Both the position numbers and the translations under genes were made by a program. A DNA stretch of 64,000 nt, taken from Acidobacteriota bacterium. GTDB lineage: Bacteria > Acidobacteriota > UBA890 > WLXD01. The DNA is taken from NCBI GenBank assembly GCA_012103255.1, contig WLXD01000007.1:186001-250000 (forward strand). Direction: 5' to 3'. The notes below the pieces were generated by a model. The model saw only the letters and a list, made by a program, of their open reading frames with translations. It did not search any database and had not been told where the DNA came from. Below, piece by piece: positions 59,598 to 63,891 of this stretch (positions are counted from its first letter, which is position 1; every line of letters starts with the position of its first letter).

Positions 59598-62237
59598 CTA
59601 GTCGTCGCGGAGCGATTGCATCGGATCGGCAGTCGCTGCCCGCCGCATCGGAGCCGCCACGGCGGCCGTGGCGGCCACGAGCACCAGCGGAACCACCAGC
59701 GAGAGCAGCTCGGCCACTGAGGGCTGGGCTCCGGCCAGATAGCCGCCGAGAGCACGCGCACCGAGAGCAGCTGCGACCGAGCCGACAATGACGCCGCCCG
59801 CCACGGGACCCAACCCCTGCCGGAGGACCAACCGTCGGATTCTCCCGGGGCTGGCTCCGAGCGTGAGACGCAGGCCCATCTCTCGATTACGGCGTGCGAC
59901 ACCATATCCCACCACGCCGTAGATGCCGATCGCGCCGAGCATCAAAGCAACTCCCCCGAAAGTCGCGAGGAGAACGAGCAAGTACCGCTGGGCGTGAATC
60001 GATGCCGCCGCAACGGTTTCGAGCGTCCGAATATCGGCAACTGGCTGTTGAGGGTCGACCTCGGCAACCGCGCGCCGAATGGCCGGCGCCAGCGCCAGGG
60101 GGTCGGGCGTGTTGGTCTCGATCACGAACTCGAAGTGGGCCCACGCGAACGTCACTTGCGCCTGCGACTGGTAGACATGCGGCCTTGGCTGCTGGTCGAG
60201 GCCCAGATGAACGGTGTCCCCGACCACGCCGATGATCTGCCAGCGCATGGCCGCGTTCGCGAGGAATTGCCCCACAGCAGGCCGATCCCCGAAGAGTTCG
60301 CGCGCCAGCGTCTCGTTGATAATCAACGAATTCGGGTTGGCCGTGGCGACGTCCGCCGCCGAGTAGGTGCGCCCTTCCACAATCGGGATTCCGGCGGCTT
60401 GGAAATAGCCTGGGGTGATTCCATCCCATCCGGTCGTGAGTTCCGTCTCGCGCGGGGGTTCACCCTCGACGGGCGGCACGGTCACCGTGATGGCCCGGCC
60501 GGAGAGCGGCAGCGTCCACGCGCCGCCAACACCTGCAACGCCCGGAACGCGGCGAAGTCGCCCTTCGAGGTCACCAACGAAAGCGCCGATGGCAGCCGGC
60601 GTGTCGTAGCGATTGGACGGCAGAACCACCTTGGCGGCAAGTCGTGACTGCTGCTGGAAGCCGGTCTCGGCGGTCGACAGTTCGACGTAGCGTTGGAGCA
60701 TCGCGCCCGCCGCGAAGACCAGCACCACCACGAGCGCCGACTCCGCGGCGACGAGGAGATTCAGCGTACCTTCGCCGCGGCCCACGGTGCCGCGAGCGCC
60801 GCTGCCCGCCACCGCCGCCGTGGCGCCGGCGCGGCCGCCACGCAGCGCCGGGAGGGTGCCGAACAGCAGCATGGCCACCAAGGCGACCGCCCCCGTGAAC
60901 AACCCCGCGCGCAGATCCATCTGAATCTCGGCAACACGAGGCAGGTCCGCGGGTGCGGACCACAGCATGGCTCGCAGCAGCCCCTGACCAACCAGCACAG
61001 CCGCAATTACGCCGGCGCCTGCGAGCGCCAGGTGCTCGGCGAGAAGTTGCCGCGTCAGTCGAGCACGACCGGCACCCAGCGCAGCGCGCAGGGCGAGCTC
61101 GTCCGCACGTTGGGTGTTGCGGGCAAGCAGGAGATTCGCGACGTTGGCACACGCGATGAGGAGCACGAGCACGACCGCGGTCAGTAACGTGAGCAGCGCC
61201 GGACGGACCTCGGTGACTACTTCCTCATGCAGTAGGATCGGACTGAACCCGTCGGCGGCGAACGGCCGTGGCGCGGCTTCATTCGCGAGCGCGCTCAGTG
61301 TCTTCAGTTCGTCGCGCGCCTGAGCGATCGTCACGCCAGGAGCCAACCGGGCGATCACGTGCTCGCCCCAGAGGTTCAAGGTTGTCAGGTCGTATTCGCT
61401 ATAGACCCGCGGCAACCACATCTCGACATCGGCCGGGAAGTCGAGACGGAAGGAAGCAGGCATCACGCCGACTATCACGGTGGGGCGACCGTTGATCGTG
61501 ACCGTCCGCCCGACAGCCCCAGGATCAGCCGCGAAACGACTCTGCCAATAGGCGTACGAGAGTACGGCCAGATCGGTCTCGCCGGCCGCCTCGTCCGCCG
61601 GAACGAACGCACGCCCGCGCGCGGCGGCCACGCCCAGGACATCGAAGAAATCTGTGGTGACCAGTGCAGCGATGACCTGTTCGGGCTCCTGAGTCTCCAC
61701 CAGCGAGACGCGCTGGGGAGCCTGGATGCCAGCAAAGCCGCTGAAAGCGTCGGCGTATTCGCGGTAGTAGTCGACGTCGAACGCAGTCATCTTGCCCCGG
61801 TCGGTGCGGTCGGCCCGGACCTGCCAAGGCACGACCAGTTGCTCGGGGTTCGCGAAGGGCAACGGCCGAAGGAGCAGGGCGTCCAGAACGCTGAACACGG
61901 CGGCGTTGCCGCCCACGCCGAGACCGAGGGCCAGCAGCGCTACGGCGGTCAGCGTGGGTTGCGAGCGCAAGCCGCGCAGGCCGAATCGGACGTCACCAAA
62001 GAACTCCACGAGCCAGCGCACACCGCGTTCGTCACGATGCATGTCCTTGACGCGCGCCACGCCGCCGAACGCACGTTCCGCGATTCGCCGCGCCTCGTCG
62101 TGGCTCCTGCCAGCGGCGCGATGCCGCGCGATTTCGCGCTCGAGATGGAACCGGATCTCCTCGTCCAGCTCTCGTTCGACAACCGACCGCCGGAAGAAGT
62201 TGCGAGCACGATCAGCCAGTCCACGCAGGAATCCCAT
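59598..62237 (-). CDS. ADOP-type duplicated permease with type B prefix
   Basis: Membrane protein of 879 residues from an ATG at 62237, separated from the PadR stop by one base (TGACATG). The type B prefix (about 15-75) reads VERELDEEIRFHLEREIARH and RSHDEARRIAERAFGG. Both permease halves follow: AVALLALGLGVGGNAAVFSV, core with INGRPTVIVGVMPASF, LIACANVANLLLARNTQR, LALRAALGAGRARLTRQ; second core with VEGRTYSAADVATANPN and IIGVVGDTVHLG; last block REMGLRLTLGASPGRIRR, ending ATADPMQSLRDD. The open frame beyond 62237 is a shadow of the PadR gene. Confidence 0.92.
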   Translation of the reverse strand: MGFLRGLADRARNFFRRSVVERELDEEIRFHLEREIARHRAAGRSHDEARRIAERAFGGVARVKDMHRDERGVRWLVEFFGDVRFGLRGLRSQPTLTAVALLALGLGVGGNAAVFSVLDALLLRPLPFANPEQLVVPWQVRADRTDRGKMTAFDVDYYREYADAFSGFAGIQAPQRVSLVETQEPEQVIAALVTTDFFDVLGVAAARGRAFVPADEAAGETDLAVLSYAYWQSRFAADPGAVGRTVTINGRPTVIVGVMPASFRLDFPADVEMWLPRVYSEYDLTTLNLWGEHVIARLAPGVTIAQARDELKTLSALANEAAPRPFAADGFSPILLHEEVVTEVRPALLTLLTAVVLVLLIACANVANLLLARNTQRADELALRAALGAGRARLTRQLLAEHLALAGAGVIAAVLVGQGLLRAMLWSAPADLPRVAEIQMDLRAGLFTGAVALVAMLLFGTLPALRGGRAGATAAVAGSGARGTVGRGEGTLNLLVAAESALVVVLVFAAGAMLQRYVELSTAETGFQQQSRLAAKVVLPSNRYDTPAAIGAFVGDLEGRLRRVPGVAGVGGAWTLPLSGRAITVTVPPVEGEPPRETELTTGWDGITPGYFQAAGIPIVEGRTYSAADVATANPNSLIINETLARELFGDRPAVGQFLANAAMRWQIIGVVGDTVHLGLDQQPRPHVYQSQAQVTFAWAHFEFVIETNTPDPLALAPAIRRAVAEVDPQQPVADIRTLETVAAASIHAQRYLLVLLATFGGVALMLGAIGIYGVVGYGVARRNREMGLRLTLGASPGRIRRLVLRQGLGPVAGGVIVGSVAAALGARALGGYLAGAQPSVAELLSLVVPLVLVAATAAVAAPMRRAATADPMQSLRDD

Positions 62238-62238
62238 G

Positions 62239-62571
62239 TCACTCGCCCTCCGGAACGGGCTCGAGCACCTTCTCGACAGCGCCAACCGAGCGACGCCATC
62301 GCGCAATCTCGTCGTCGAGCGCTCGCCGACCGGCGCCGGTGAGTTCGTAGTATCGCGCCCGTCGCCCGAGCTCACTCGTTTGCCATGCGGCCTTCACCAG
62401 TCCGCGCAGCTTCAGTCGCTGGAGCGCTGGGTACACGGACCCTTGGCCGATGTCGAACACGCCGTCGGTGGTGTCACGCAGCCGTTCGCAGATGCGCCAG
62501 CCGTGCATGGATCCGGAAGCCAGCGTGCGGAGCACCAGCATGTCGAGGGTGCCGCGAAGCAAGTCGCTCAT
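62239..62571 (-). CDS. PadR family transcriptional regulator (type B)
   Basis: Winged-helix regulator of 110 residues from the ATG at 62571: LLRGTLDMLVLRTLASGSMH, then GQGSVYPALQRLKLRGLVKA and GRRARYYELTGAGRRALDDE. The open frame extends to 62646 but that stretch carries the operator-like repeats, so the shorter start is better. It is the second type B PadR here and precedes the second type B-prefixed permease. Its promoter region has two copies of TGTCGA-N3-TCGACA-like sites. Confidence 0.94.
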   Translation of the reverse strand: MSDLLRGTLDMLVLRTLASGSMHGWRICERLRDTTDGVFDIGQGSVYPALQRLKLRGLVKAAWQTSELGRRARYYELTGAGRRALDDEIARWRRSVGAVEKVLEPVPEGE

Positions 62572-62658: not shown

Positions 62659-63129
62659 TCACCCCATCGAGGAACTCTGGCGACCGGGCAATCGCACGAC
62701 CAGGTGGCGGTAGGGACGGGCGAGGCACAAGGGCAGCATGAGCGCGGCGAGCGCGAAATTGCCGCTCGGTGGGAGGATGGTGCCGCCGAAGGCTAGGCCG
62801 TAGTTCACGGCCAAAAAGACACCGGCGGCGGCCCCGAGGCGCGGGGGCAGACCGGTGACTAACGCGACACCCACCGCCAACTCCCCTACCCCAACCAGGC
62901 CGGTGAAGAGCGTCGGCCACTCGAGAACCACCCCGCGTAGGAACGCCTCGTAGCCGAAGGTCGCGGTTGCCTCCTCGAGCGCACCTTCCAGGGCGTCGCG
63001 GAGATAACCCACTGAGTCGTCGCGCCGGAACCACATCGAACCCGACAGAGTGAACATGACGCCGAACAAGAATCGCTGCAAAGTGAGCACTGCGGTTGCC
63101 GAGCTATCGACCCATCCAGGAATCTTCAT
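62659..63129 (-). CDS. DoxX-like membrane protein
   Basis: Membrane protein of 156 residues with four helices: TLQRFLFGVMFTLSGSMWF, LFTGLVGVGELAVGVALVTG, AAAGVFLAVNYGLAFGG and FALAALMLPLCLARPYRH. The pattern fits the DoxX family (quinone/thiosulfate-related or redox-protective membrane proteins). It has no ribosome site; candidate regulator sites lie only three bases upstream of the start, so the seventh PadR, encoded divergently, probably controls it. Confidence 0.88.
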   Translation of the reverse strand: MKIPGWVDSSATAVLTLQRFLFGVMFTLSGSMWFRRDDSVGYLRDALEGALEEATATFGYEAFLRGVVLEWPTLFTGLVGVGELAVGVALVTGLPPRLGAAAGVFLAVNYGLAFGGTILPPSGNFALAALMLPLCLARPYRHLVVRLPGRQSSSMG

Positions 63130-63131
63130 GT

Positions 63132-63158
63132 ATTAAGCTTACATACTGTAAGCTTACA
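63132..63158. promoter_or_regulatory. Repeat pair between DoxX and PadR genes (candidate operators)
   Basis: The perfect palindrome TGTAAGCTTACA (63147-63158) is preceded by the related ATTAAGCTTACA (63132-63143), 15 bases away. They lie 3 bases from the DoxX start and about 90 bases before the PadR start, well placed to control both. Confidence 0.6.
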
Positions 63159-63245
63159 TTGATACAGCTGAGACAGCGTGACACGACAGGTTGCATAAGC
63201 CCGCTCAACAGGGAACGCGGGCGAATCTCCAAAACGCGAGTCAGA

Positions 63246-63563
63246 ATGTCACAGCCACTACCCCATTTGCAATTCGCCGTACTCGGCATTCTCGGGGGCG
63301 ACCGCCTATCGGGTCGCGACGTTCGGGAACGTCTTGGCGATCTCGGCGTCGCCCGCGGCCTTACCGCCTTTTACCGGCTGATGTCGCGCCTCGAAGAGTC
63401 AGGCATGGTCAAGGGCCGTTACGAGCAGGAAGTAATCGACGGACAGATCGTCCGGGAACGCGTCTACAACGCCACCGCCGCTGGACGCCGTGCACGTGAT
63501 GCCACCGCGAACTTCCATCAGCGCGTGGTGGCGCAATACTCCACCGCGAAACTCCTTGGCTGA
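63246..63563 (+). CDS. PadR-like transcriptional regulator
   Basis: Winged-helix protein of 105 residues: PHLQFAVLGILGGDRLSGRD, RGLTAFYRLMSRLEESGMVK and a wing with IVRERVYNATAAGRRARD. It is more divergent from the other PadRs here but keeps the fold. I start at the ATG at 63246; the frame runs further upstream through the operator region. It overlaps by eight bases the gene of a small prefix-domain membrane protein instead of a permease, and diverges from DoxX. Confidence 0.85.
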   Translation: MSQPLPHLQFAVLGILGGDRLSGRDVRERLGDLGVARGLTAFYRLMSRLEESGMVKGRYEQEVIDGQIVRERVYNATAAGRRARDATANFHQRVVAQYSTAKLLG

Positions 63564-63891
63564 ATCGCGACCACCCAGAGTCGTTGAATGGCTGGCCGCT
63601 GTTCTACCCGAGTCCCGGCGCCAGCTGATGTTCGAGCCGCTCTGCGCGGAGTTGTGGCGCGACAGGGTTGCTGCCGGGCGCGGCGCCGGCCCGAGGGTGC
63701 TGTTCTGGGGCCGAATCGCGGGCAACTTCGTCGGCACCCTCTTCCTGTCCTGGCCACGCTACTTCCGCGATCAAGGAAGGTTCACGCGTCTTGGCAAGGC
63801 CACCGTACTGGCGGCCGGAGCCGTCACCGCTCTGTTCGTGGCGGCGCTGGTCGACTGGGCGATCTTCGTCGTACGCCACGACTTGTTCTGA
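63556..63891 (+). CDS. Stand-alone prefix-domain membrane protein (no permease)
   Basis: Protein of 111 residues starting at TTG inside the PadR gene's last codons. Its first half, RPPRVVEWLAAVLPESRRQ, EPLCAELWRDRVAAG and VLFWGRIAGNFVGTLFL, matches the type A prefix domain of the permeases (compare WLVARFLPGGER, GDLAEGH and WYWRQAVGI). The second half is one membrane helix (TVLAAGAVTALFVAALVDWA) and a short tail. No MacB or FtsX part follows; the gene ends at a TGA at 63889-63891 and the next gene is on the other strand. It may be a minimal partner of the PadR or the remnant of a lost permease. Confidence 0.72.
   Translation: MAESRPPRVVEWLAAVLPESRRQLMFEPLCAELWRDRVAAGRGAGPRVLFWGRIAGNFVGTLFLSWPRYFRDQGRFTRLGKATVLAAGAVTALFVAALVDWAIFVVRHDLF

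Follow-up and report, generated by a model that had tools for sequence, protein, structure and literature searches.

A conserved PadR, short prefix and DoxX gene unit with candidate operators in Acidobacteriota and Gemmatimonadota: a possible membrane-linked control circuit

PadR proteins are mostly repressors, and their release induces the target. A dyad of the HAAS domain and a PadR-like wHTH protein has been proposed as an alternative to two-component signalling, with partners that include permeases of the MacB/FtsX type (PMC11237479, mSystems 2024). HAAS overlaps DUF1700, for which the Listeria protein Lmo0600, located beside LltR, may be compared, and several PadR regulators respond to ligands themselves, as described in the introduction of PMC6624303. 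In Bacillus, catDE is under the control of the winged-helix repressors CatR/YodB, while HypR, YodB, and CatR sense HOCl, quinones, and diamide (PMC6943732). The mycobacterial DoxX, in turn, is placed in a membrane oxidoreductase complex with SodA and SseA in PMC10943396. A text search of the literature recovered no paper on a DoxX–PadR pair by title or abstract, as the two papers that contain both names are, by these criteria, devoted to different topics, and no mention of the term “permease prefix domain”.

The window, that is, the whole stretch of 64,000 nucleotides analyzed here, contains such a pair as part of a set of three small genes. A regulator of a PadR subfamily with 105 amino acids (63246–63563, plus strand), which carries the recognition-helix variant FYR, is followed by a gene of 111 amino acids with a TTG start (63556–63891, plus strand), which encodes a standalone prefix membrane protein. 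The stop of the first gene and the start of the second overlap by 8 nt (TTGGCTGA, 63556–63563), and this overlap recurs at most loci in an alignment of the junction from 14 loci. The divergent gene, on the minus strand (62659–63129), encodes a DoxX-family membrane protein of 156 amino acids, the presumed regulated output, which scores 24.2 bits against PF07681 (cut-off 23.6). No ADOP permease core (TIGR03434) was found after the prefix, as the gene ends at 111 amino acids, and the wider contig continues with an unrelated ORF of 271 amino acids on the opposite strand. The overlap, the absence of a permease behind the short gene, and the divergent DoxX had all been proposed in an earlier note on this DNA, and are confirmed here. 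A separate PadR gene (62239–62571, minus strand), the second within 1 kb but outside the three-gene unit, lies just past DoxX, and beside it is an ADOP permease with permease prefix domain 1, from 59598 on the minus strand (window 59598–62571).

The regulator scores 24.7 bits (E = 2.3e-5) against the Pfam family PF03551, below the curated cut-off of 27, and 20.1 bits against TIGR03433 (padR_acidobact), for which the cut-off is 101.8. It is 36–52% identical to 15 relatives, and the profile of the subfamily (A7) matches the solved PadR proteins 5zhc, 9qbd, and 9qbc at E values of about 1e-4.

The short protein was initially described in the earlier note as a prefix of the same type as those of the window permeases, with one membrane helix, and neither of these points was sustained. 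The perm_prefix_2 profile (NF038404) gave no match to it at E ≤ 1, and when the standalone family was set against perm_prefix_2, to which the prefixes of the window’s own permeases belong, the probability was 3% (hhalign). The comparison with six fused prefixes, by the same method, returned 98% (E = 1.5e-13, 65 columns). On these profile comparisons, the short protein is assigned to a separate prefix family, members of which are joined to ADOP-type permeases elsewhere, at further loci with this PadR subfamily. Two hydrophobic segments are present, a weaker one at residues 48–66 (63697–63753; Kyte–Doolittle 1.16), directly followed by a proline that is conserved in the alignment, and a strong one at residues 88–106 (63817–63873; 2.22), which is a likely transmembrane helix and lacks the permease motif G-x-G-x-N. 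The core motif LP-x3-R-x4-EP (residues 17–28, 63604–63639), in which L17, P18, R22, and P28 are invariant in the family, falls inside a predicted helical hairpin (8–16 and 19–39), with longer helices (47–72 and 78–110) following in the AlphaFold model. The mean pLDDT is 68.6 for this model and 55.8 for a second family member. A PDB fold search with the prefix model, the confidence of which is only moderate, gave no match at E ≤ 0.001, and the prefix profile recovered only chance-level matches to inner centromere protein (E 0.5 and 1.9) from the PDB sequences.

ADOP-type permeases are abundant in these genomes. The four genomes G000 to G003 contain 83 matches to perm_prefix_2, nearly all in permease-length frames and none of them the short protein, which makes it exceptional for a prefix to lack a permease. 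In the window’s genome (G000, 4.8 Mb), 35 such matches are found, nearly all of them in permeases of 870–1050 amino acids, which represents a very large ADOP-type family.

At seven other loci of the same PadR subfamily (G007, G015, G443, the decayed G532, L062 and L063 in G000, and L061 in G002), proteins related to the short one extend into ADOP-type permeases, and this, together with the decay of G532 and a frameshifted standalone copy (G000:C1), would fit a prefix-permease remnant that was fixed by chance beside DoxX. The earlier note had named homologues that continue into a permease, combined with decay of the copy, as the signature of a truncated remnant; the first part is observed, and the second is not, given that the dN/dS analysis which it suggested indicates purifying selection on the short gene. 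The ratio is 0.16 in the least diverged pair (G001_C208 and G002_C35), the only one at moderate divergence, and 0.31–0.60 in pairs with near-saturated synonymous sites. The GC content by codon position (0.68/0.53/0.79) also has the periodicity of a real gene, the frame is open and conserved in two phyla plus the Planctomycetota, the protein has its own C-terminal helix with no permease motif, and the overlap with PadR is conserved. As a standalone gene under purifying selection is not a truncated remnant, this candidate was rejected on the basis of conservation, dN/dS, and codon bias; it is already contradicted, and scarcely credible.

The frameshifted gene belongs to a second copy of the unit in the window’s genome (L022:1412–2906; G000:C1 at about 1338230–1339730), where PadR is intact and two DoxX genes lie in tandem. 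The frameshift precedes the second membrane helix and reflects either real decay or an assembly error; as PadR and both DoxX genes are intact, this locus, unless the assembly is at fault, may not always depend on a full-length prefix, and this counts against a control unit of all three genes.

The search of the proteins of 99 relatives recovered two more short-form loci, in one genome of the same genus, both with a divergent DoxX, PadR, and the short gene, and no permease. Profiles of PadR and the short protein, applied after this search, brought the DoxX, PadR, and short-gene unit to 13 loci, so that it is present at no fewer than this number of loci in at least 11 genomes of two phyla, the Acidobacteriota and the Gemmatimonadota. 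These loci are found in the Acidobacteriota (G000:C9, which is the window, G000:C1, G001:C17, G001:C208, G002:C35, and G003:C253), a Longimicrobiales MAG (L024, G396), a Gemmatimonadetes MAG (L029, G399), and five additional genomes that belong to the same phylum as the Longimicrobiales MAG (G547, G503, G409, G518, and G543). The check proposed in the earlier note, whether the PadR and short-prefix pair is conserved without a permease, has a positive outcome in at least two phyla. The unit is nevertheless infrequent, with a handful of cases among the several hundred genomes sampled per phylum, where part of the candidates in each genome were scored (19–31 with the PadR profile), so that distant members may have been missed.

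A fourteenth locus (L118, G937) has kept PadR, the short gene, and the operator, and only a remnant of DoxX; this C-terminal remnant lies on the divergent strand (L118:1200–1480), beside an intact PadR and prefix. DoxX is missing from the locus of a Phycisphaerales MAG of the Planctomycetota (L025, G397), where PadR is accompanied by the short gene only. In a Planctomycetaceae locus (L028), a related PadR is followed by a protein of 172 amino acids, and this locus was left out of the counts.

Standalone prefix genes lie beside this PadR subfamily in all 15 cases, as in the constant association with a separate PadR that marks the HAAS–PadR dyad, though many of them were found through PadR. DoxX is present within 1.5 kb at 13 of the 15 standalone loci and at none of the seven permease-fused loci (Fisher P = 2e-4, or 1e-3 with one locus per genome), a count for which the DoxX profile was built from those same loci, and in which the P values are guides only, because of the common descent of the loci. 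DoxX is more strongly linked to the pair than could be perceived from the letters alone, on which the earlier note was based. A comparison of the 5–18 kb of surrounding sequence showed that only DoxX, PadR, and the short gene are shared between phyla, apart from the ADOP-type permeases, and no third family of the SodA or SseA type, nor any other conserved neighbour, was found there.

It is conceivable that the pair of PadR and the prefix is complete in itself, and that DoxX is a passenger in a neighbourhood inherited by local synteny without function, as the pair without DoxX in G397 would suggest. The PadRs of the standalone loci may also share a single origin, in which case the loci are not fully independent. 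Against this, the flanking genes change between phyla while DoxX remains, DoxX retains its own operator in G543 despite the altered gene order, and a DoxX of another subfamily occupies this position in the window, all of which make a passenger role improbable. In three genomes (L011, L014, and L022), the C208-type locus keeps an ornithine carbamoyltransferase-like gene and a protein of 176–185 amino acids with an FWVGxW motif, and a gene resembling that of isoleucyl-tRNA synthetase is recognizable at two of these loci. A protein similar to the FWVGxW-motif type also adjoins the unit in G503.

The palindromic sites that the earlier note had placed next to the DoxX start proved to be significant in comparison with shuffled sequences and expected frequencies. 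A candidate PadR operator, the 11+5+11 inverted repeat ATTAAGCTTAC-N5-GTAAGCTTACA (63132–63158), pairs at nine of the 11 arm positions (shuffle P = 0.007), and is unique in the window, with no occurrence in 100 shuffles. The perfect palindrome TGTAAGCTTACA (63147–63158) is also unique in the window at up to one mismatch (0.01 expected), and forms part of a composite array of half-sites, TTACA-N3-TGTAA-N2-TTACAT (63139–63159), which is conserved at the sister locus G001_C17. The 21-bp array, TTACANNNTGTAANCTTACAT, has 17 of its 21 bases identical between these two R-type loci, and its pattern occurs once in the G001_C17 region (L065:1232) and, elsewhere in the regions scanned, only at the window locus (L005). 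The composite operator of the window lies 2–30 bp from the DoxX start, although, with only 2 bp between the end of this operator and the first ATG, the exact position of the start is uncertain. The DoxX–PadR intergenic region of the window showed no sigma-70-like promoter, which is a point against a control unit at this locus.

At the loci of the FYQ type, the intergenic candidate operator is ACATAA-N7-TTATGT, usually within AGTNACATAAY-N5-RTTATGTNACT. The core, with up to two mismatches, is found once per region at most loci, where approximately 0.7 would be expected over all 269 kb, and the exceptions are an overlapping second match in G002 and two separate sites in G543. When the long pattern (up to three mismatches) was searched in 15 whole genomes, the only matches in seven of them were in the DoxX–PadR intergenic region, and a single unrelated stray site appeared, in G543; the PadR regulon is therefore probably this locus alone. 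The same operator precedes PadR at the permease-fused loci G007, L062, and G443, while the versions in G015 and G397 are weaker and are not recovered at up to two mismatches.

The class of operator tracks the residue that follows FY in the presumed recognition helix of PadR, with ACATAA-N7-TTATGT in the FYQ class, TGTAA-N2-TTACA in the FYR class (the window and G001_C17 only), and CAATAT-N11/12-ATATT in the FYE class (L061 and L063), which, on the basis of these predicted sites, extends a natural specificity series for the PadR. A large and distinct palindrome is located upstream of PadR at both L061 and L063 (permease-fused), being CAATATAGGGTGACCCTATATTG at L063.

The gene order in G543 is rearranged, with the short gene first, then PadR, and then DoxX on the opposite strand. 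One operator precedes PadR and another lies about 90 bp before DoxX, with none before the short gene, and this arrangement is the strongest indication from sequence that DoxX is itself a target.

The window itself is an awkward member of this group. Its PadR has a long branch in the tree (0.99) and is the most diverged member, with the GPAFY motif altered to GLTAFY. Its DoxX belongs, by profile assignment, to a different subfamily (PF07681) from that of the other loci (PF13564), given that all six of the other-locus proteins tested were above the PF13564 cut-off, i.e., of the shorter DoxX_2 type, and BLASTP matched it to the DoxX of G001_C17 only at E = 0.036. This divergence, together with the other DoxX subfamily and the other operator class, counts against a control role here, and would suit a diverging or decaying paralogue that has lost its original DoxX_2 and has its present DoxX neighbour by coincidence. 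The PadR and prefix frames are both intact, with coding bias, however, and the composite operator is conserved with G001_C17 at 2–30 bp from the DoxX start, so that a coincidental pairing is considered quite improbable. The proposed mechanism has, even so, a firmer basis at the FYQ-type loci than in the window.

As the unit and its conserved candidate operator recur in distantly related bacteria, they look like a genuine, undescribed control circuit, rather than a broken transporter. The PadR would bind the inverted-repeat operator between the divergent promoters, and repress its own operon and the DoxX gene; the predicted operators include the inverted repeat near its own promoter that is a feature of the PadR family. 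The short prefix, produced from the PadR message by overlapping translation, would be seated in the membrane, with its small helical domain presumably in the cytoplasm, and might bind, hold, or release PadR, and so convey to it a signal from the membrane or envelope. The relayed signal would switch on the small membrane protein DoxX, for which a redox role is suggested by family association. Elsewhere, the same PadR subfamily and prefix would control the permease to which the prefix is fused, which implies that the prefix is an interchangeable signal-coupling part, with the permease or DoxX as the output. The regulatory half of this model appears well supported by the gene and operator sequences, whereas PadR repression, the contact between the prefix and PadR, and the membrane signal and its relay are steps that we infer. 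The chances that PadR, the prefix, and DoxX form a conserved three-gene control unit with a membrane relay to PadR are evenly balanced.

The short protein could also be an accessory subunit of a DoxX complex, that is, part of the effector, with the PadR sensing a small molecule directly and controlling both genes. PadR and LmrR are direct small-molecule sensors, as are several of the ligand-responsive regulators mentioned above; the prefix and DoxX are both small membrane proteins that are almost always found together, and the permeases carry the homologous domain within the effector molecule itself. The prefix gene is tied to PadR by the 8-nt overlap, however, and not to DoxX, and persists with PadR where DoxX is missing (G397) or reduced to a remnant (G937). 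In G543, moreover, it lies upstream of PadR with no operator, while DoxX has its own, so the prefix would not be co-induced. Given that the prefix gene stays with PadR, and outside the operator in G543, a signalling role is favoured over that of a DoxX subunit, which is considered rather unlikely, and the data are consistent with a sensing or PadR-tethering function for the prefix.

It is possible, at slightly less than an even chance, that the prefix domain, which would have no sequence relationship to HAAS, acts by itself as a transducer anchored in the membrane and serves a dedicated PadR subfamily, with a swappable output, either an ABC-type permease or DoxX. No match to HAAS/DUF1700 was found in Pfam at E ≤ 1, a negative result that is weak because the ADOP of the window has no Pfam HAAS match either, and hhalign gave 0.3% for the prefix against a HAAS proxy composed of two prefix-1 sequences only. 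No DUF1700 sequences were found in plasmids with a consensus sequence. The HAAS core is composed of three helices, the third of which has a GxP kink. Three helices, with [GANS]xP near the end of helix 3, are present in most members, in low-confidence models with no PDB fold match, and this feature, together with the LP-x3-R motif, may hint at HAAS. If confirmed, such a transducer would represent a modular alternative to two-component signalling. PadR-linked permeases with N-terminal prefixes of unknown role are abundant, as the 35 matches in the window’s genome indicate, and a prefix that occurs without a permease, with PadR, a clear candidate target, and an operator, separates signalling from transport. 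As only three small genes are involved, the job of the prefix is directly testable, and the system would also provide a regulator and an operator for the DoxX proteins, whose physiological signals are poorly known.

The ADOP and padR_acidobact system (TIGR03434 and TIGR03433, with prefix domains NF038403 and NF038404) resembles this locus in the order of a PadR gene and then a prefix, and some relatives of the short prefix do sit on ADOP-type permeases; the present unit differs in having no permease, a distinct prefix family, and a PadR that scores well under the cut-off of TIGR03433. CatD belongs to the DoxX type, and the regulation of catDE by a winged-helix protein may be a parallel, although CatR is of the MarR/DUF24 type, senses through a cysteine, and has no membrane partner. 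The mycobacterial DoxX complex also links a small DoxX membrane protein to oxidative stress, but no SodA- or SseA-like neighbour is common to the loci described here. In its way of working, the nearest known system would be the HAAS–PadR dyad, in which a membrane protein likewise carries a small helical domain that is paired with a PadR-type regulator. The present unit differs from this dyad in its output, DoxX, which is absent from the partners described in the available part of PMC11237479, and in its helical domain, which stands alone, with a membrane helix of its own.
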